Positions 2,967 through 31,141 of a stretch of 46,672 nt of DNA are shown in pieces. The notes below the pieces were generated by a model that had not been told where the DNA came from, made no database searches, and worked only from the letters and a program-made list of their open reading frames with translations. This DNA is from a virus. The stretch is from positions 1-46,672 of the IMG/VR virus record IMGVR_UViG_3300009610_000040; one strand, given 5' to 3'. The translations under genes were made by a program, and so were the position numbers. The first letter of the stretch is position 1. Each line of letters opens with the position of its first letter.

Positions 2967-5900
2967 TCAGGGCGGGGGTGGTGTAGGGGTCATGGTTGGG
3001 AACAGGGTGGGCTGCGGCGTCTGGCTATGAGCCCTGGCCCACCCATCCTTCACGGGCTTCAAGAGGACCATCTCGCGCTCGCACATGGCCTTGAAGGTCC
3101 AATAGGGGATCTCGTTGACTTCGGAAAGCGGCGGCGGGCTCTGCGGATCGGTGTACTCCACGGGGCCAGCGCAGTTGTTCTGCACCGTGGGGTTGAACCA
3201 GGCCACATCGCAAACGGACACATCGGGTGCCACGTCGTAGAACGACATGCACATGTGATCCTGACCGGAGCCGCAGGCATCCTCATCCTCGCGGCAGGCC
3301 AGGCTCCAGCAGGTGGCCCACTTCCCGGTCATGTAGCCCGGATCTCCGACCAGGCTGTAGGCCATCAAGTTCAAGAGCGCCCCAGCGCACCTTGGGGTGA
3401 CCTTGTTGTCCTCGAGCCCCAAGCTGGGGTCGGTGTCGATGGCCTTGAAGTCTGCGATCAGCCGGTTCATCTGGGGCACGATGTAGATGCGCTCATAGCA
3501 TTCGAAGATTCCGTAGGCATCCGGGTCGTTGCCGGTCGGAAAGTTCTTCCACCTAGAAGTGTCACAGGTTGTGCAGCTCCCACCCGCTTGGCAAATATGC
3601 TTCCACGCCCAGTCGTAGAAGTCAAAGGGGAAGGTGTAGAGGTTTTCAGGATCTGAGGGATCTCCAGGGCCGCCCTCCTCGCACTCGTTGCGGACCTTGT
3701 CCTTCTCGGCGTGGTCCGTGATTCTGTCCATGAAGTTGTCCGCAGGCTCGTAGCCCTCGATGCGGGTAACCGGGATCGGGAACGGCGGCTCATCCTCTGG
3801 GTCATCCCCATCTGGGATGAAGCCACCCTCCTTGTTGTCTGTGTGGGTGGCATCGCAGATGCCGTCGTGGAAGGTGGCCCCTCCGCACTGGCCCCCTTCT
3901 TCAGGACCAGGGGTCGCAGGGCCATTCCCAGTGCAGTCCTTGAAGCAGATCTGGCCCAGCCGACTCAGCTGCCTTCTCCAGGAGTCCGTGATCGAGGTAG
4001 CCGCATCGCAGTTGGCATCAGTCGAGGGCAGGCTGGGTGGCGGTGTCGGCCCCAGCGGAGTGAAAGTCCTGGTGGGCGTAGGCCCAATGAAGGTCGGCGT
4101 GAACGTCCTGGTTTGGGTGGGCCACGGGGTCCAAATCGGAGTTCCGAGGGTGTTCACCGGCCTCGGGTACCCAGACTGGGGCCGACAGTCCAGGATCTTC
4201 AGGGAGCGCCACTCGGGCTCGATGTTCGTTTGCTTCTCCTCGATGCAGGCCCTGTAGGTCTGGACCTGGCGGGCCTTGCAGGCATCGGTCATCTCTCCGA
4301 AGTCGTCCCAGCACAGCTCCCAGTCGCCTTCGAAGAACTGCTCAATCGACTCCTGCATGTCGATCCAGGGCACCCCAGTGGCCTTGGCCACCTTCAGAAT
4401 CGCAGTCCTGAGCCACGCCTGCTCCCTAAAGTTGTGGTGCCCAGCGGGAGGCAGCGGCTCAATCACAGCGATGGCCACCGCTTCGCGGGCATGGACGCCA
4501 GCCACAGCCCTCCTGAAGTTTTGGAGCACCGTAGGCACCCTGGGGCGCTCCTGGCAGTAGCCCTCACACCCAGCGATGTTCTTTTCGGCGCTCGAGTAGA
4601 TGTTGGGCTGGCACCAGCTCAGCTCCGCATCCTCCGGGTTGGGGTCCCCGGTGCAGAACAAGAGCTCCAGGTCGCAGTCATTCCCGAGTTCGCCCGAGGG
4701 CTGGGTGCACCGCATGTTGGTGTCCGGTTCCAAGAGAGGGTTGGCGTTGGCGAACGGCCCATAGGTGTCCTGCACACGGCACGGATCTCCGTCGTCGCCC
4801 TCGCCGGGGTTGTGGCAGATGCCCTGCTTGTGCTCGCCGGTCATCTCGTTCGGCCCCAGCGTGATCAGGACCACGTCCGAGAACACGTCAATGCCAGCCT
4901 CGACGTTGCCACCCGAAGTGATCTCACAGTCGGGCAGCGGCCCCTCCTGCCTGCGGGCCATCTCCACCGAGTAGCCCCCAACCTGGTAGTTGCAGATCCC
5001 GTCCTGGGTGATCACCAGGTGCTGCACCGCAGTCCAGAAGATGTTGTCCAGGGTCCTCGAGGAGCTGGCATCCAAGCCCAGGCCCAGCAGCCCGTCCTCG
5101 TTCATGTCCGGAATCCGGAGCTTGGTGTGCGTGAAGGTCGGAGTGATCGTGGGTGTCGGCGTCTCCGTAGGAGTGAAGGTAAAGGTGTTCGAGGGGGTCG
5201 GCGTCGCGGTGGGCACCGAGGCCTGGATGGGCACCAGCGACAGCCCGGCCACGCAGCTGTTGTGCGCGATCACCGGCCTCAGCGGCCCCGTGGTGGTGAA
5301 CTGGCCCCGCATCATCATGATGTGCGGAGGGTCCGTGATGACGTTCTCGATGCGAGTGATGACCGTCGATTCGTAGTCGAGTGGAGGGGGCCAGTCCCCA
5401 GGGCCGATGAGCCAGCCCTCCAGCTCATCCCCAATCAGCACCGGGGTGGGGGACTCCAGGGCCAGCGACGTGGAAAAGCCTCGGCCCTGAGTCAGCCCAG
5501 CAGGCTCCATCCGCGAGGCCCCAAACACCAGGAGGCCCCCCTGGACGGACGCGCTGGGCAGCGTCAGCACCTCAGCATCGCTGTCGGAGGTGCGAGCCAG
5601 GGTGGTCCACAGCGGATCAACGAAGATGTGCAACCCCCCATTGGGAGTCGGAGTGGGCGTTGGGGTCGGAACTCCGGTTTGGCAGGCCCGGTCCCACGGA
5701 TAGGTGCCCCCTCCAAGGTAGTCCTTCTGGGGGATCACCTCGACGAAGGCCATGCCCCTAGCCTCGATTTGGCCCCCATCCTCGAGAACCCGCTTTTGGA
5801 GCTCGAACCTATGGGTGACAGCCGGGCCAGCAGGGGCCAGCGAGTACCAGTAGCCGATGGTGCCGATGGACTCCGCGTCAGCGGTGGTCACCTCCAGCAT

Positions 5901-7811: not shown

Positions 7812-10228
7812 CCGACCGTGACCAGGAAGTCGTAGGCAATCTCTGAAACGCACCCAATGCACATCAGGTGCATGGCGATTCGATCCCCGACAGCCCAGCT
7901 GATGTTCTTTGCGGGAATCTGATTTGGAAGGTCCAGACTAGCTACATAGTCGGTGTTGCTGAGCACCGTTGCGGCCACATCCAGGTCCTCAACAAAGTTC
8001 TTCGAAAAGCGCACCGTCACATTCTGACCCGAGAGATCAGGCAGCGGAGCCCTCTCTGGGTTGCTGTCGTCGTAGACAGTCACGGTCACATTGCGGACGC
8101 GAACACAGGCAAACGGAGCCCCAATCTCGGCGTTCAGCCGGTCATTAACCATCTCGCCGTTCATCTGGTTGGCCCAGTTGAAGCCAGAGGGCTCATCCCC
8201 CTCCTGGAGAATGAAGTCGTTGGCCTTGAACAGGAAGTTCGTCGGAATCGTGGAGATGCTGAGCCCGCCCGCGCTCTCAATGTCCGCTTGCGTGAGGGTC
8301 CACTCCAGGTCGGGATCGACATCAATCATCAGGGTCTGATCGAAGTCCTCCGAGAACTCCATGGTGGGGCCTTCTTTGACGATCACCACCGGCTCCGTAG
8401 CGATGGCTGGAAGGTCAAAGGTGTCTACCCAGCTGATCGTAGCCCCTCCACCTTCTCCGCCGCCACCCAGGGCTATTTCCTCCCAGATGTTGGCGCTCGA
8501 GTCCCACCTGAACAGGATGCCCTCGTTCTCAGTGACGGTCCTGGAGGTGTTCCCAAAGAGCTGGATGTTGGTGTCTGGCTCGTCATCGTCGTCCTGAAAC
8601 GTGAGCGAAAAGGCGCTCTCGTTGACCACGAAAATGAGGGTGCCGTTGGCATCGTCCTCAGGAGCCCCAATCGTTGGGGTGCCATCCAGCACCATGGGGG
8701 AGCCGGTGATGTTCGAGACCTGAATCAGCGACGAGTCCGTGGTTGGGATCTCATCGTCGGTGGCGTCAATCAGCACCAGCGTCGGCACAATCGAGATGGT
8801 CTGCACAAAGTCGGTGTCCCCAAGGAAGCTCTTGTCCCCGGCAAAGCCTTGGGCCACATCGGTCACTCCACCTTGGTCAATGCCGATGCCCGCGTTGGGA
8901 ATGTTCAGCACATGGGTGGCCCCAAACGAGCTCCAGTTGGGACTCGTCCCAGCGTTCCCGTTGTCCAGGAACTGATGGACGCCGGGGAGGCCGTTGATGC
9001 TCATGACGCCAACAATCGAGCCGCCCACCTGCCACCACTTGCCTCCGGTGTACATGAGGGTCATAGCCTGGCCGTTCGCCAGCGTCACCGACTCGTTGTT
9101 GAACAGCTCCATGTTCGATCCGGGAAGGTCCGACTCGTCCTCAAAAGTGACGGAGTCTGCGCTCAGCACGGCCAAGATGCCGATGGTGCCGTCGTTGGGC
9201 GCGTTCAGCAGGTGCGGCTCCGAAATCATGACCAGATCGTCGCCTGAGGTGTTGGTCACCTTCATGAAATTGGAGGTGAAGCCCAGGGTGGTATTGTTCG
9301 CGGCCAGCGAGATGGAGCTGGGCTCGAACGCAATCGCTCCCCCGAAGTTCTTTGCTCCCTCAAAGGTCTGGTTTCCTGTTGAAACGAGGCCCCTGGCCGT
9401 GTCCGAGGCATCCGGGATGCAGAACTCGTGGTCGTCGGTGGTGCTGGTGATCTCAAAGTCGGTGCAGGTGTCAGCCGTCGAGAAGGTCTGCGTCGTGGCC
9501 GTCAAGGCGTTCAGGGTGGTGATGCCGCTCCCGGCTTCGCCCAACTGATCGGAGGCGCACGCCCACTCGAACGGGCTTGCCGAGGCTTTCAGGACCTGCC
9601 CATCGGCGCAGTCCTGGAGCCCCATGGTCTTGGCCTCCGAGCCGAAGGTCGCCAGCCCGCCATCAGGAGCAAGGCCAGTCACATATTCACCGATTGTTTC
9701 GGTTTCGAGGGTGATGCAGTCTGTGCACACCAGGTCCGTCCCAATGGTGGTTACGCCGCTCAGGGTCTTGTCGCCGTCAATAGTTTGGGTGCCGAAGTTG
9801 ACTACACCCCTCACATCGGGTGCTGCATCCGGGAGGTGCCAGGTGTGCGTGCCTGCGGCACTGGTGATGGCGAAGTCGGAGCCCACGGAGTCCACTTCGA
9901 AGGTCTGAAGGGCATCTGTCTCGCCATTCATCGAGGTGATCCCCGCCCCTCCTCCCCCCGCCCCAACCTCCTGGTAGGCCCCTCCGTTGATGCTCAGCTT
10001 CAGGAGGTTGTCATTCGAGTCGCAGGCCAGGGTCATGCGGCTGCTCTGCGAAACCGCTGGCAGAGCCCGGCAGGCCATGTTGAGGGACCACCTGTCTCCT
10101 TGGGAGCTCCTCTCAAACTTGAGAAAGGACTCGCTCTGGGAGCTGATGGTCATGTTCTGGGCAGAATGCCCCGCCGCGTGCGAAGGCAGCAGGGCCAGCA
10201 GCAAAGCCAGCAGCCAGAGCCGTCTCAT
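7802..10228 (-). CDS. Tail-fibre-like protein with repeats and signal peptide
   Basis: An 808-residue protein with ATG at 10228 overlapping the preceding stop as ATGA. Residues 1-23 form a Sec-type signal (MRRLWLLALLLALLPSHAAG). A fibre repeat occurs three times, at about 96-165, 235-302 and 408-476: a GI(T/S)xxN start, QTF, an FxIxS..H.xxxP-(D/N)-A core, then (R/Q)G...G(x)KxF. Between copies lie two related modules that contain PNDGTIGILAVL / PEDDANGTLIFVV and end in GGKWWQVGG / SANIWEEIA. This repeat style is common in phage tail fibres. The C-terminal part (about 600-808) looks distinct and may be a tip or chaperone-like domain. A signal peptide on a fibre is unexpected. Confidence 0.8.
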   Translation of the reverse strand: MRRLWLLALLLALLPSHAAGHSAQNMTISSQSESFLKFERSSQGDRWSLNMACRALPAVSQSSRMTLACDSNDNLLKLSINGGAYQEVGAGGGGAGITSMNGETDALQTFEVDSVGSDFAITSAAGTHTWHLPDAAPDVRGVVNFGTQTIDGDKTLSGVTTIGTDLVCTDCITLETETIGEYVTGLAPDGGLATFGSEAKTMGLQDCADGQVLKASASPFEWACASDQLGEAGSGITTLNALTATTQTFSTADTCTDFEITSTTDDHEFCIPDASDTARGLVSTGNQTFEGAKNFGGAIAFEPSSISLAANNTTLGFTSNFMKVTNTSGDDLVMISEPHLLNAPNDGTIGILAVLSADSVTFEDESDLPGSNMELFNNESVTLANGQAMTLMYTGGKWWQVGGSIVGVMSINGLPGVHQFLDNGNAGTSPNWSSFGATHVLNIPNAGIGIDQGGVTDVAQGFAGDKSFLGDTDFVQTISIVPTLVLIDATDDEIPTTDSSLIQVSNITGSPMVLDGTPTIGAPEDDANGTLIFVVNESAFSLTFQDDDDEPDTNIQLFGNTSRTVTENEGILFRWDSSANIWEEIALGGGGEGGGATISWVDTFDLPAIATEPVVIVKEGPTMEFSEDFDQTLMIDVDPDLEWTLTQADIESAGGLSISTIPTNFLFKANDFILQEGDEPSGFNWANQMNGEMVNDRLNAEIGAPFACVRVRNVTVTVYDDSNPERAPLPDLSGQNVTVRFSKNFVEDLDVAATVLSNTDYVASLDLPNQIPAKNISWAVGDRIAMHLMCIGCVSEIAYDFLVTVGCR

Positions 10229-13919: not shown

Positions 13920-13966
13920 AAAAAAAAACACGGGAGAGCCAAGGGCTTTTGCCCTTGACCCTCCCG
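13920..13966 (-). terminator. Rho-independent terminator (minus strand)
   Basis: The hairpin has an inner perfect stem CAAGGGC/GCCCTTG (13,940-13,946 with 13,951-13,957) around a 4-base loop and an outer stem CGGGAG/CTCCCG. In the minus-strand sense it is followed within two bases by a run of nine T (13,920-13,928). It begins 7 bases beyond the stop of the 99-residue gene, so it ends that transcript and insulates the late terminase operon. Confidence 0.88.
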
Positions 13967-13972
13967 TTTGTC

Positions 13973-14618: not shown

Positions 14619-14645
14619 CAAAGCACCTTAAGGCGAATCAGAGCC

Positions 14646-14672
14646 CCCTGGCAGCCCAATAGCTGCCAAGGG
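14646..14672 (-). other. Stem-loop after the VWA gene
   Basis: TGGCAGC/GCTGCCA forms a perfect 7-bp stem around CCAATA, extended by CCC/GGG with single unpaired bases. It lies about 35 bases beyond the VWA gene stop. No T-run follows on the minus strand, so it may be an RNA processing or stability element or a partial attenuator rather than a full terminator. Confidence 0.45.
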
Positions 14673-14708
14673 ACTCCATAGGCTTGTTCGTCGCCTCCTA
14701 AGCAGTGT

Positions 14709-25529: not shown

Positions 25530-25591
25530 CCAAGTCCGCGTCTGCGGACATGGCACTAAAACAAACAGCACGCCAGCCACAGGAGTCTCAA

Positions 25592-26584
25592 ATGGCAATG
25601 ATCGTAGACGGTGTCTACTACGTAGATAACTCAACCTTGAAGGCGGTGGCCAGGTGCGACACAGACGCCTACCTACAGTACGTGTGTGGCTACCGCCTCA
25701 AGCAGACCGAAGAACGAGCCCCCCTCAAATCAGGGACAGCCATCCACGAGGCCCTGGCCACAGCCTTCCGCGCCATGGCCTCTGGCTCGAGCGCCCTGGA
25801 GGCCCAGATCCTGGGCTTCGAAACCCTCACCAACGAATATCGGGATTGGGCGCTGGCCGAGATCCCCCCGAACGACCGCCTGGGCTGGCCCAACATCTCC
25901 AAGCTCTACAACGCTTGGTGCGAAGTCCAACTCGGCAGCCTCCCCTTCTACTTCACCGACCCCCGCATGGTGGAGATCGGCTTTGCCCATCCCCTCGACG
26001 AGGACGGCGAGTTCGTTTTCTACGGGCGGATGGACGGCATCGCCAACCACGTCATTGACGATTCCTGGGTGGTGGTCGAGCACAAGACCACCGGGCGGAT
26101 GGACTCCCTTTGGGCCAACCAGTGGCACATGGACAGCCAGGTCAGCGGCTACATCTGGGCCGCGCAGCAGCACAACCCCGAAGTTTTTGGGTGCATCATC
26201 AACGGCATCGAAACCAGCCTTCTTCCTTCGGACGAGAAGCGCAAATGCAAACTCCACGGGGTGCCCTATTCTGAATGCGGGACCTGGCCAGACCATTTGA
26301 AACGCCGTCTCAGCGGCCCCATCACCCGGACGCCCGAGCAAATCCTCCAGTGGAAGAAGACCGCACTACAGCTAGCCCGTCGCTTTCAGCAGATGCACAA
26401 GATGTTGGGGGTTGACCCCAAACAGGTTGAAATGCTAGCTATGCAGGGCATGTTCAACGCCTCCTGCAAGTGGTGCAACGTCCGTGACTTCTGCTCTGTA
26501 GGTAGGCCCATTGACAGAATTGACAGCATGTTCGAGTATGCACCCTGGACTCCATACGACCCACTCCAATTCAAAGCCTCTTAA
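25592..26584 (+). CDS. RecB/Cas4-like PD-(D/E)XK nuclease
   Basis: A 330-residue protein from ATG 25592, which has CCACAGGAG 7 bases upstream (an upstream in-frame ATG lacks this). It shows the PD-(D/E)XK set: GTAIHEA (H52), GRMDGI (D148), VVVEHKTTG (E163, K165) and QVSGY (Q183), the order of RecB/Cas4 nucleases. Cysteines C22 and C292, C295, C301 (C-x2-C-x5-C) could hold a 4Fe-4S cluster, as in Cas4 and AddB. It likely acts as an exonuclease in phage recombination or DNA processing, together with the Sak4-like ATPase and SSB-like protein downstream. Confidence 0.85.
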   Translation: MAMIVDGVYYVDNSTLKAVARCDTDAYLQYVCGYRLKQTEERAPLKSGTAIHEALATAFRAMASGSSALEAQILGFETLTNEYRDWALAEIPPNDRLGWPNISKLYNAWCEVQLGSLPFYFTDPRMVEIGFAHPLDEDGEFVFYGRMDGIANHVIDDSWVVVEHKTTGRMDSLWANQWHMDSQVSGYIWAAQQHNPEVFGCIINGIETSLLPSDEKRKCKLHGVPYSECGTWPDHLKRRLSGPITRTPEQILQWKKTALQLARRFQQMHKMLGVDPKQVEMLAMQGMFNASCKWCNVRDFCSVGRPIDRIDSMFEYAPWTPYDPLQFKAS

Positions 26585-27068: not shown

Positions 27069-27830
27069 ATGCAAACAGAACCTATCCACGTCATCTGCTA
27101 CGGCGACTCGGGTGCTGGAAAGAGCACCTTCGCTGCCACCTTCCCAAGGCCGCTGCGGGTCTGGCTCTTTGACGAGTTCGGCAAGAGCAGGCCCTACCGG
27201 GCCTCGGGCGGCGAAGTCGAAGACTACGTAGACGACTTCGGCACCAACTGCACCAGCATCGACGCCGGAACTGACAAACAAGTTGTGATCGAAAAGTACT
27301 TTGACTTCGATCCCAGCACCGGCGAGTCCAGCGGCTTCCACCGCTTCCTGCAAAGGCGCGAACGCTACCTCAGGTCCAAGGCGTGGCAGGACGACGCCAC
27401 CCTGGTGGTGGACTCCGTGACCTTCATGGAGCTGGCCGCTCGCAAGTACGACCAGCACGTCACCAACAAAACTGCCCGTGACCCCCGCCAGTGGTTCGCA
27501 GCCAGCACAGATGCCCTTGAGGACACCCTCATGGTCAAGCTGATGGGCCTCCCCATCAACGTGGTGGTGCTGGCACACATCGACGAGGAACGGGACGAAG
27601 TCCACGGTGCAATGGTCTTCAACCCCTCTGCTCCTGGACGCCTCAAGAAGCGCCTCCCCTCAGCCTACGGGGAGTTCTACAGGGCCTATGCCACCCGCGA
27701 CGAGGCTGGTGATCCGGCCTGGGCTCTCCAGACACGCTCCGACCGGCGCTACAACGCTGCTTCGCAGATCGGAGCCCCAAACCCTTGCTACCCACACTAC
27801 CAAGAGTTGTGGATTCCCCCAGCTCTCTAA
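27069..27830 (+). CDS. Sak4-like RecA-fold ATPase
   Basis: A 253-residue protein from ATG 27069, after CCACAGGAGG. Walker A GDSGAGKST at 12-20, Walker B LVVDS at 112-116, and a later Ser/Asp-His pair (VVLAHIDEERDEV). The pattern and size fit phage Sak4-type single-strand annealing/strand-exchange ATPases, which work with a phage SSB. The next gene is SSB-like and the upstream gene cluster has an exonuclease, which supports a recombination role. No DNA-packaging or helicase motifs are present. Confidence 0.8.
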   Translation: MQTEPIHVICYGDSGAGKSTFAATFPRPLRVWLFDEFGKSRPYRASGGEVEDYVDDFGTNCTSIDAGTDKQVVIEKYFDFDPSTGESSGFHRFLQRRERYLRSKAWQDDATLVVDSVTFMELAARKYDQHVTNKTARDPRQWFAASTDALEDTLMVKLMGLPINVVVLAHIDEERDEVHGAMVFNPSAPGRLKKRLPSAYGEFYRAYATRDEAGDPAWALQTRSDRRYNAASQIGAPNPCYPHYQELWIPPAL

Positions 27831-27851: not shown

Positions 27852-28475
27852 ATGCCCACAGTGAATTGGGAAGACGTACCTGACAGCGTGCTGCTGCCGC
27901 ACGACATCTACGACGCCGTCATCAAGAGCACCGAGCTCAAGTTCTCCAAGGGTGGGGACGGCAAGGTGCAGAAGCTGATGGCCGTGGTGGCCTTCGAAGT
28001 CACCGCCCCGGAGCGCTTCGAAGGCTGGGTCCGCACCAACTACTACGTCCTCGGCACGGACGACGATCCAGAGGCAGTCGAAGAAGCCACCTCCAAGGAC
28101 TCAGGAGGCTTCCGTGGCCTGAAGCGCCTCGCGAAGTGCGCCAACACCCCGCTGGACCCCGAGCTGGAAGTGACCCTGGAGGCCCTCCCCGGCGCCCAGG
28201 TCTCCCTCATGGTCACCCAGGAGAAGGACAACCAGGGCCGCATGCAGAACCGCATCACCACCGTCTATCCGGTGGGGGAGCAATTGCCCGGCAGTTTGAG
28301 CACGGGTTCTGCTCCTGCGGCCCCAGCCCGGGCCGCTCAGCGCACCGCCCCACCCCGCCCCTCCACCCCTCCCAGCCGCCCCTCAGCCCCAGCAGCCCGC
28401 CGTGCCCCCGTGGAGGAGGGCACAGACGAAAACCCTCAGCCCGCCCCTCGCCAGCAGTCCTTCCGCCGGATGTAG
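27852..28475 (+). CDS. SSB-like single-strand DNA-binding protein
   Basis: A 207-residue protein from ATG 27852. The N-terminal 140 residues look like an OB-fold (YDAVIKSTELKFSKGGDGKV; KLMAVVAFEVTAPERFEGWV; RTNYYVLGTDDDPEAV; VSLMVTQEKDNQGRMQNRIT). It is of the DUF669/SSB-like type often found next to Sak4. The C-terminal part is a long Pro/Ala/Ser-rich linker ending in SFRRM, without the acidic tip of classical SSBs. Near the end is an AAACCCT heptamer that could shift some ribosomes into a zinc-finger extension. Binds and protects single-stranded DNA in replication and recombination. Confidence 0.75.
   Translation: MPTVNWEDVPDSVLLPHDIYDAVIKSTELKFSKGGDGKVQKLMAVVAFEVTAPERFEGWVRTNYYVLGTDDDPEAVEEATSKDSGGFRGLKRLAKCANTPLDPELEVTLEALPGAQVSLMVTQEKDNQGRMQNRITTVYPVGEQLPGSLSTGSAPAAPARAAQRTAPPRPSTPPSRPSAPAARRAPVEEGTDENPQPAPRQQSFRRM
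28430..28436 (+). promoter_or_regulatory. Candidate -1 ribosomal frameshift heptamer
   Basis: AAACCCT is in the correct register: the SSB frame reads A-AAC-CCT (codons 28,431-28,436), the canonical XXX-YYY-Z layout. After a -1 slip the next codon is TCA and the frame stays open to the TGA at 28,628, reaching a clear C2H2 zinc finger. The region is GC-rich, and a CGCC/GGCG hairpin lies about 50 bases downstream. Confidence 0.5.
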
Positions 28476-28630
28476 GGGCTCCGCCAAAGGCGCCAAGGAA
28501 GCCACGAGCTCCCAAGAAGCCTGAAGGCCTCGAATGTGTGATCTGCGGCTCCTGGGTGGAACGCTCGAACCTGAGCGACCACGTCCGTCAGCACGAGGCC
28601 GAAGAAGGGGTCGCGGACCACAGCGTCTGA
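28436..28630 (+). CDS. C2H2 zinc-finger module without its own start (possible SSB extension)
   Basis: The frame -1 to SSB encodes 64 residues from the frameshift point to TGA 28,628: a Pro/Lys-rich linker followed by ECVICGSWVERSNLSDHVRQ and H, i.e. C-x2-C-x11-H-x3-H, then an acidic end. The frame has no ATG and no credible GTG/TTG start with a ribosome site in the region between the SSB end and the finger. Possibilities: a programmed -1 frameshift giving a 259-residue SSB-zinc-finger fusion; a non-standard start; or a sequencing indel that split one gene. Confidence 0.5.
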   Translation, partial: SARPSPAVLPPDVGAPPKAPRKPRAPKKPEGLECVICGSWVERSNLSDHVRQHEAEEGVADHSV

Positions 28631-28633
28631 ACA

Positions 28634-28668
28634 GAGGGGGGCGCCTCCACGCCGGAGGCGTCCCTCTC
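28634..28668 (+). terminator. Strong hairpin before the DNA polymerase gene
   Basis: A 15-bp stem (GAGGGGGGCGCCTCC with GGAGGCGTCCCTCTC, two G-T pairs) around a 5-base loop. Only a short, weak T-run (CTTTG) follows, so termination would be partial; it may instead reduce polymerase expression or shape the mRNA. It ends 19 bases before ATG 28688. Confidence 0.5.
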
Positions 28669-28687
28669 TCGCTTTGAAAGGACACCC

Positions 28688-31141
28688 ATGCCCCGAATCG
28701 TAAAGGATGAGGGACCGCTCTCAGCAAAGATCGTCCTCGTGGGCGAAGCCCCCGGCAGGCAGGAGGACGAGTCAGGAAGGCCCTTCGTGGGCAAGTCCGG
28801 AGCCAAGCTCGAGTACTGGTGGCGCCAGGTGGGGCTCCGCAGGAGCCAGATCTACATCACCAACGTCCATCAGGAGCGCCCACCCGAGAACAAGATTGCA
28901 GCTATCAGCCCCTCCGTGATGGCTGCCAGCATCGACTCCCTCCACGAGAGGCTTGCCCTCCTGGAGGACCCCAATGTCATAGTTCCAACGGGCAACACAG
29001 CCCTCCAGGCTCTCACCGGCCAGCGCTCCATCACCAAGTACCGAGGCAGCATTCTCAACTACATTGACCACAACGGTAGGCACATCAAGGTCATCCCCAC
29101 CATCCATCCGGCTTCGATCTTCCACATGATGAAGACTGGAAACCCTGGAAGGGTTGAGAAGCACTGCCTCGCGGACTGGCAGAGGATCGCAAACGAAGCC
29201 GCTTCGCCCGAGTTCAACCTCCCAGAGAGGCACCATGACATCCTCCCAACCCACAAAGAGTGCCAGGACTACCTGGAGGAAGTGAGGGACCTTGGACCCG
29301 GCGAAGCCCTCTCCGTCGATATTGAAACTGCCCAAGGCAAGATCCTTTGCGTTGGGTTTGCCTTCCAGAACGACCGCTCCTTCGTCATCCCCCTGGAGGA
29401 CAAGAGGCACTGGAGCACAGACCGCGATGTGCACCGGGCTCGCGAAACGATTGAGGAGATCTGCGGCACGCAGGTCCCCAAGATCCTACAGAACGGGCTC
29501 TACGACACCTACTGGCTAGCTCAGCTCTACGGCATCGACGTTCGCAACTACGTCTGGGATGTGAAGGCCATGCACCACACCTTCGACCCAGTCGATGACC
29601 ACAGCCTGGCCTACATGCAGAGTGTCTACACGAGGGAGCCCTTCCACAAGGACGAAGCCAAGGACCCAGACAAGGTCTCAGCCTATGCCAGCAACCTACA
29701 TGCGTTGCAAACCTACTGCGGCCTAGACAACTGTGTGCAGCACGAGCTGTACGAAGTGTTCCACGGACGCCTCATGGTTGAGGAACTTCTCGACTTCTAC
29801 CTGGAGCTCTATCCAGACCTGTTCCAAAGCATCTTGCACATGATGATGGGCGGCATACGCACAGCGTCTTCGACGCGGAAGCTGGCGCACATGCGCATCC
29901 ACTCCAGGCTCATCGAGATCCAGGATGCCCTGTCTGGGCTGCTAGGCGAAAAGATCTACGCCAAAACAGGCTTGAGCCCCATCAAAATCAGGAAGCTCCT
30001 GTACGAGAAGCTGGGCCTCCCAGTGCAGCGCAACCGCCAAACAGGCAACGTCACCACCGACGAAGTCGCTCTCCTAAAGCTGAACATGACCCACCCGGCT
30101 GAGGCCCAGCCAGCCATCCCCCTGATTCTGGAGCACCGCAGGCAGAGCCACCTCATGCAGTTTTTCGATGAGGGGGCCACGGACCACGACGGCTACATCA
30201 GGTGCGAGTACACAACCACCACCGAAGCGGGGAGGCTGGCCTCCAAGTCCAATCCCCTCGGCACCGGGCGCAATCTCCAGAACGTGGATCGCGAAGTCCG
30301 CGATACATTCCTCCCCGATGAGGGCCACATCTTCCTCGAGGCCGACCTTAGCCAGGCCGAGAGCAAAGTTGTCTACGTGTTGAGTGGCGACCCCGAACTA
30401 ATCAGGCTGGCACAGTTGCCTAGCTGGGAGTTCGATCAGCACACTTACAATGCTGCTCAAATCTTTGGTATCTCCGAGAAGGACGTAACAAAAGCGCAGC
30501 GGGACTTCGGCAAGAAGACCGTCCATGGAGCCCAGCGGGGCCTGCGCGGAAAGAAGATGTCCGATGGGCTCCTCAAGGACGGCTACGTTGTAGACTCCGT
30601 AGAGTGCGACGCCAAGCTAGATAGGTACCTCAAGAAGTTTGACATCGAGCGCTACTTCAAGTGGGTGCGCAAGCAAATGGCCATGCGCCGCCGCCTTCAG
30701 AACAGTTGGGGCCGCATCTGGGACATCACCCACGAGCGCTTCGGGGACGACCTGTTCAGGAGGGGCTACAGCTTCCTGCCACAGTCGGAGGTAGCAGACC
30801 TTCTGAACATGTGGGGCCTCAACCCCACTGTGAAGCTACTGGATTGCCCTAAGTATTCAAAGTTCGATGTACTGCCAGCCAGGGTGTGCGCCCAGATCCA
30901 CGATGCCATCCTCGTTTCAACTCCTCCTGACGAGGCCTATGACATAGCCACCTTCATCCAAAAGAGCCTTGAGCGCCCCCGCATCTACTTTGGAGACACC
31001 AAGCACGGAGTGCCCCTCACCATCGGAGTCGAGTTCAAGATCGGCACCTCCTGGAAGGGTACCTACAGCTTCAAGAGGCTGCCCAGCCGCGACGAGTTCA
31101 ACGACCACGTAAGGAGACTAGTGGATGGCTCTGTCAAATGA
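28688..31141 (+). CDS. UDG-like / 3'-5' exonuclease / family A DNA polymerase
   Basis: An 817-residue replicative DNA polymerase. Residues 1-180 are a family-4 uracil-DNA-glycosylase-like domain (GEAPGRQED at 19-27, GRPFVG at 30-35, HPASIF at 140-145) that lacks the four Fe-S cysteines of true family 4. An exonuclease domain follows with DIE 211-213, NGLYD 269-273 and Y343...D347. The polymerase domain has TTTTEAGRLASKSNPLGTGR, motif A LEADLSQAE (D553), motif B RDFGKKTVHGAQRG near 605-618 and motif C QIHDAILV (HDA at 738-740, instead of the usual HDE). AGGA precedes ATG 28688. The combination resembles SPO1-type polymerases as I recall them. Confidence 0.85.
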   Translation: MPRIVKDEGPLSAKIVLVGEAPGRQEDESGRPFVGKSGAKLEYWWRQVGLRRSQIYITNVHQERPPENKIAAISPSVMAASIDSLHERLALLEDPNVIVPTGNTALQALTGQRSITKYRGSILNYIDHNGRHIKVIPTIHPASIFHMMKTGNPGRVEKHCLADWQRIANEAASPEFNLPERHHDILPTHKECQDYLEEVRDLGPGEALSVDIETAQGKILCVGFAFQNDRSFVIPLEDKRHWSTDRDVHRARETIEEICGTQVPKILQNGLYDTYWLAQLYGIDVRNYVWDVKAMHHTFDPVDDHSLAYMQSVYTREPFHKDEAKDPDKVSAYASNLHALQTYCGLDNCVQHELYEVFHGRLMVEELLDFYLELYPDLFQSILHMMMGGIRTASSTRKLAHMRIHSRLIEIQDALSGLLGEKIYAKTGLSPIKIRKLLYEKLGLPVQRNRQTGNVTTDEVALLKLNMTHPAEAQPAIPLILEHRRQSHLMQFFDEGATDHDGYIRCEYTTTTEAGRLASKSNPLGTGRNLQNVDREVRDTFLPDEGHIFLEADLSQAESKVVYVLSGDPELIRLAQLPSWEFDQHTYNAAQIFGISEKDVTKAQRDFGKKTVHGAQRGLRGKKMSDGLLKDGYVVDSVECDAKLDRYLKKFDIERYFKWVRKQMAMRRRLQNSWGRIWDITHERFGDDLFRRGYSFLPQSEVADLLNMWGLNPTVKLLDCPKYSKFDVLPARVCAQIHDAILVSTPPDEAYDIATFIQKSLERPRIYFGDTKHGVPLTIGVEFKIGTSWKGTYSFKRLPSRDEFNDHVRRLVDGSVK

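Follow-up and report, generated by a model that had tools for sequence, protein, structure and literature searches.

An SSB-like gene in a tailed-phage genome probably yields two proteins through programmed −1 ribosomal frameshifting: a fingerless SSB and a minority form that ends in a C2H2 zinc finger. We favor this reading, which is drawn from sequence comparison, because the gene shares the layout around its frame change with a second phage locus, L194, whereas the ten members of the same clade that carry the finger in frame have no such signal. The genome is an IMG/VR virus record (IMGVR_UViG_3300009610_000040), analyzed over its full 46,672 nucleotides and referred to below as the window; its portal, terminase, and internal virion proteins, recognized by PHROG matches, assign it to a tailed phage.

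An SSB gene beside sak4

The early region of the window encodes, in this order on the plus strand, a PD-(D/E)XK exonuclease, a Sak4-like ATPase, the SSB-like gene, a UDG-family A DNA polymerase, and a primase/helicase-like protein. The Cas4-type exonuclease (25550 to 26584; Pfam PDDEXK_1, 6e-15; phrog_1218 exonuclease) opens an exonuclease-Sak4-SSB module. The Sak4-like AAA ATPase, a single-strand annealing protein (27069 to 27830; Pfam AAA_24, 7.8e-11; phrog_124 Sak4-like, 2.5e-15), lies immediately 5′ of the SSB gene, and the polymerase (28688 to 31141; Pfam DNA_pol_A, 3e-35; UDG, 2e-26), which served as bait for relatives, lies 3′ of the finger frame.

The SSB-like gene itself (27852 to 28475, plus strand; phrog_2300, 5.8e-10) runs from an ATG at 27852 to a TAG at 28473 to 28475 and encodes a 0-frame product of 207 amino acids, in which an OB-fold core of approximately residues 1 to 140 is followed by a disordered Pro/Ala tail ending EEGTDENPQPAPRQQSFRRM. 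An AlphaFold model built with 12 relatives shows a disordered tail after a confident core (pLDDT above 90); in a Foldseek search with this model, the OB-fold protein PrgE came out on top (1.2e-5), with RPA and bacterial SSBs next. DUF669 is matched by relatives of this protein, with 22.5 bits for the one at L275, and the window SSB itself stays below the Pfam cut-off for that family. The features by which Sak4-linked DUF669/phrog_2300 SSBs are recognized, namely, the family match, the OB fold, and a sak4 neighbor, are all found in the window. On sequence and model, the name is sound: the gene can be called a DUF669/phrog_2300-type SSB with Sak4 as its likely partner, and its binding to single-stranded DNA is predicted. 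The SSB of HK620, a DUF669 member encoded beside sak4, has been purified and is a genuine SSB (PMC5928155).

The C2H2 finger and its distribution among relatives

The −1 frame is open between a TGA at 27881 and a TGA at 28628 to 28630. Its extension beyond the SSB frame, 64 codons plus TGA (28436 to 28630, plus strand), encodes a Pro/Lys/Ala linker and then a C2H2 finger, CVICGSWVERSNLSDHVRQH, with C-x2-C-x11-H-x3-H spacing, a hydrophobic core, and its Cys and His codons at 28535 to 28594; C2H2 matches in the PDB and conservation in the clade underlie this assignment. The first-pass annotation had placed the finger correctly, both in its coordinates and in its frame. It was also right in stating that the finger has no usable start: in the −1 frame, none of ATG, GTG, TTG, or CTG occurs between a GTG at 28136, deep within the SSB core, and a GTG at 28538, within the finger, and a single ATT is found at 28283.

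Independent translation of the finger as a small protein, whether begun at an atypical start codon inside the gene or by ribosomes reinitiating at the SSB stop, is in our view very improbable. The ATT at 28283 is preceded by purine-rich sequence, yet a start there would put roughly 80 out-of-frame residues (IARQFEHGFCSCGPSPGRSAHR...) ahead of the finger, a lead with no counterpart in any relative, and start codons are absent near the TAG. In L194, GTG codons stand just ahead of the finger, but they lack a Shine-Dalgarno (SD) sequence and would give a product of fewer than 30 residues. Moreover, the finger is fused to the SSB in all in-frame relatives, and nowhere in the clade did we see it as a gene with its own start, the finding that had been named as telling against a frameshift.

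Several searches bear on the finger as a domain. A phmmer search of the PDB matched solved C2H2 fingers (ZBTB17, E = 1.1e-5). Against Pfam the finger scored 16 bits, under the cut-off of 27; neither a PF00096 search nor a search for the finger as a degenerate DNA pattern gave a match. With a finger profile from which the window had been left out, the window finger was recovered at an E value of 0.19 over all ORFs, a weak score which indicates that the finger is divergent yet in the expected place. After the SSB stop, −1 is the best of the three frames by codon usage, though atypical for the window genome; a switch-point analysis of codon usage puts the frame change late, at 28455 to 28470, with a resolution too coarse to test the heptamer described below. 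A perfect-looking C2H2 motif was also met in L029 and L030 (CPNCQRGFKTLAGLKSHMRTH; L030, 8024 to 8482), where it belongs to a different reading frame, one that overlaps the polymerase gene at its 3′ end, and is probably due to chance. Since that motif sits in the wrong frame of a polymerase gene, a C2H2 motif alone is no proof. Comparison with relatives settles the matter: judged from the aligned loci, the window finger is real, more than a chance motif, and it is predicted to bind zinc. The model of one in-frame relative, L193, has an OB core and, beyond a disordered linker, a beta-beta-alpha unit modeled with confidence (pLDDT, 92 to 93).

A strong hairpin (28633 to 28669, plus strand; −33.6 kcal/mol, z = −4.3) begins 2 to 3 nt past the stop of the finger frame, ahead of the polymerase gene. 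It has no T-run. Such a stable structure just after the TGA is consistent with that codon being a real gene end. Strong intergenic hairpins also occur on the minus strand of the window, at 13921 to 13970 and 14631 to 14680, the former followed by a T-run and resembling an intrinsic terminator.

Searches with single proteins (SSB, Sak4, and polymerase) revealed no close relatives, and a scan of genome contigs retrieved chiefly uracil-DNA glycosylases and distant polymerases. An alignment of polymerases reached phages with 36 to 42% polymerase identity, and a Sak4 alignment added further loci. The impression of an orphan given by the first polymerase alignment was wrong; that alignment had reached only distant kin without fingers. 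No near-identical contig covering the window junction was found.

Within the resulting clade, 12 of the 14 phages have a C-terminal finger at their SSB; more distantly related loci that encode Sak4, about 50 in all, have 0. In 10 loci, SSB and finger lie in one frame, and the SSB encoded after Sak4 ends in a short CxxC...HxxxH or HxxxC motif (L193, L195, L196/L197, L198, L200, L201, L206, L216, L274, and L275), L216 being partial, with only a 57-codon fragment. Two loci, the window and L194, encode the finger in the −1 frame, and two members, L199 and L222, have none. As far as these loci indicate, the SSB-linked C-terminal finger is a clade marker, and the fused SSB-finger protein is the clade norm, given that 10 members carry the finger in frame. 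The clade thus offers a natural comparison among an obligate fusion, a putative two-form gene, and a fingerless SSB. Two loci showed other peculiarities. In L195, a Sak4-like ORF (3319 to 4131) is apparently permuted, its Walker A segment (GDTGTGKTRFASTF) lying at the C terminus, either naturally or as a contig artifact. In L047, a small gene with two zinc motifs (9728 to 9937) is located between the pieces of a split family A polymerase.

Candidate signals at the frame change in two phages

Upstream of the SSB stop in the window, an AGGAGG (28414 to 28419, plus strand) with no start codon within reach is a candidate SD-like stimulator. It lies 10 nt 5′ of the heptamer A AAC CCT (28430 to 28436, plus strand), which is in register with the SSB frame and is the sole in-register X_XXY_YYZ of the gene; SD-like stimulators of −1 shifts are located 9 to 14 nt from the slip site (PMC5009743). 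A slip there is predicted to give an SSB-finger fusion of 259 residues, the length already proposed in the first-pass annotation. A possible stem-loop based on GCCCCU/AGGGGC (28443 to 28479, plus strand) follows 6 nt past the heptamer and spans the SSB stop. Its minimum free energy is −17.1, with z = −1.4 over 46 nt and about 0, the same as shuffles, over longer stretches; by stability, it ranks in the top 3.4% of 40-nt windows. An Rfam search returned nothing. An in-register heptamer, an open −1 frame, and an SD-like element at 9 to 14 nt, as expected of bacterial −1 sites, are all present.

The heptamer had been described as canonical. It is indeed in register and of the X_XXY_YYZ form, but in Escherichia coli it would be a weak motif rather than a canonical one: slippage is poor on CCN motifs with mixed X/Z, and A_AAC_CCA failed despite a strong stimulator, while A_AAC_CCU is not one of the three heptamers that failed under the strongest stimulator (PMC4066793). 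By these data, which may not fit the host, the window heptamer is a weak slip motif.

L194 (IMG/VR record IMGVR_UViG_3300044499_000067) is the second −1 case. Its SSB ends EEEEEEAPKKRRAK-stop in the 0 frame and its finger lies in the −1 frame, which has no start before two GTG codons directly ahead of the finger. Here, AGGAGG (5757 to 5762) precedes C_CCA_AAA (5773 to 5779) by 10 nt and the overlapping A_AAA_AAG (5776 to 5782) by 13 nt, and a hairpin, CGGGCC-AAGTA-GGCCCG, starts 6 nt after C_CCA_AAA and crosses the stop (z = −3.0 over 30 nt). Both heptamers count among the shift-prone motifs of E. coli (PMC4066793). On sequence, the L194 junction is a textbook bacterial (dnaX-type) −1 cassette layout, better formed than that of the window, which repeats the same spacing with other letters: AGGAGG, 10 nt, a heptamer, 6 nt, and a stem across the stop. 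The polymerase tree, in which supports within the clade are moderate, rejects the window and L194 as one clade (AU test, p = 0.011), so the two −1 cases probably have independent origins.

How often would such a site arise by chance? The window contains 33 in-register heptamers in 12,841 codons; a perfect AGGAGG lies within 21 nt upstream of two of them, and only that of the SSB gene lies at 10 nt. Among the 12 finger-bearing SSB genes, the 57-codon L216 fragment included, a heptamer with AGGAGG at 9 to 14 nt marks the two frameshifted genes and is absent from all 10 in-frame ones (p = 0.015). When synonymous codons were resampled with the protein held constant, a heptamer plus SD appeared in 11% of draws for the window and 8% for L194, which makes each cassette alone modest evidence. 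In sequence terms, the cassette is suggestive for either gene and stronger for the two jointly.

Two kinds of indel could also have separated the finger from the SSB frame, and together we consider them possible but not probable. First, the true gene may be a single-frame SSB-finger fusion, with a one-base assembly or sequencing error in the contig between approximately 28430 and 28475. This is unlikely in our view, even if the in-frame fusion is the clade norm, most isolated frame disruptions are sequencing errors or indels (PMC3711429), and each −1 case is known from one unreplicated metagenomic contig. The window junction lacks a long homopolymer, no broken genes were noticed elsewhere in the window among the genes tested, and the acidic EEGTDEN confines any indel to after about 28430, at the heptamer or beyond. 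An error would also turn the layout of AGGAGG, heptamer, and 6-nt spacing, together with its repeat in the independent L194, into coincidence. At the L194 junction, six consecutive A residues make an indel likelier. Alternatively, a real indel mutation may have left this lineage with a fingerless SSB only and the finger as a fresh relic, a scenario that we judge slightly less likely still. Loss of the finger seems to be tolerated, as the fingerless SSBs of L199 and L222 indicate, and the window heptamer is a weak slip site. Yet the Cys and His residues of the finger and its coding signal are still intact, and an independent mutation in the same direction would be required in L194, each at a heptamer with AGGAGG 10 nt 5′.

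The proposal of a programmed −1 frameshift joining SSB and finger, as put forward from the window alone, therefore stands in part. The fusion is borne out by the ten one-protein relatives, and AGGAGG, the possible stem, and L194, with its own frame offset and cassette, none of them listed in the first-pass annotation, speak for the shift; slippage itself is putative, the heptamer being weak and most relatives being in frame. That 10 of the 12 finger-bearing relatives need no shift counts against it.

Two proposed SSB forms and known systems

In the mechanism that we infer, with regard to the occurrence of slippage, its rate, and the binding target of the finger alike, most ribosomes would read to the TAG and release the 207-residue SSB with its disordered tail and basic tip. 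Pairing of the anti-SD at AGGAGG, perhaps aided by the stem over the stop, would cause a minority to slip −1 on A AAC CCT and to read 64 further codons, giving the 259-residue SSB with a C2H2 end. The finger may then provide the SSB coat with another contact, to nucleic acid or to protein.

Read in the 0 frame, the SSBs of the window and L194 both have basic ends (APRQQSFRRM and APKKRRAK, respectively). From their sequences, these resemble the basic ends of SSBs of this family that are naturally fingerless, such as RPAMRRLGK in L199, APRRARR in L222, and TVKRR in Microbacterium phages. SSB C termini are a hub that recruits repair and recombination proteins. In the HK620 SSB, the last six residues are required for Sak4 recruitment and for stimulation of annealing (PMC5928155); a C-terminal frameshift would therefore alter the contact-making part of the SSB, and two SSB forms would give the coat two kinds of contact. 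It is about an even call whether −1 frameshifting arose at least twice independently in the clade, turning an obligate SSB-finger fusion into a pair of forms; the ribosome would then set how much of the SSB on single-stranded DNA bears the finger, as a translational dial on the C-terminal interaction end. If so, a mixed SSB coat could be built simply by changing the C terminus in a constant minority of its molecules, and a replication/recombination gene would join the short list of phage genes with known programmed frameshifting.

Programmed −1 frameshifting, sak4-adjacent SSBs, and OB proteins extended by C-terminal modules are each already known; a literature search of the open-access subset found no report of a phage SSB with a frameshift-joined C-terminal module. 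The HK620 SSB is similar in its sak4 neighbor, its OB-type fold, and its partner contact at the C terminus, but it ends in NDYPPF, with no finger and no reported frame change, where the window protein has a finger or a basic tip (PMC5928155). The DUF669 SSBs of Lebethron, Almagne, Polewnik, and MW202455 likewise combine an OB core, a disordered linker, and a C-terminal module; in contrast to the window gene, the modules are encoded in one frame and are SAP/HeH-like (on visual inspection) or SH3/KOW-like, with no finger. Post-linker modules also vary among the DUF669 SSBs of L101 to L112 and L003 (SAP/HeH-like, SH3/KOW-like, and long acidic tracts). DUF669 SSBs are a family with interchangeable ends.

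Two frameshifting systems invite comparison. In the tail assembly chaperones (G/GT) of tailed phages, a −1 slip gives a minority product an extra C-terminal domain, as proposed here, but those are structural genes of another protein family. E. coli dnaX (tau/gamma) is, like the SSB gene, a replication gene with two products that have a common N terminus, and its signal is built alike, with an internal SD about 10 nt upstream, an X_XXY_YYZ heptamer, and a stem-loop a few nucleotides downstream; L194 even has A_AAA_AAG. The −1 shift in dnaX yields the shorter product, whereas here it would yield a longer one with an added zinc finger, and at a heptamer, A_AAC_CCT, that is weak in the window.
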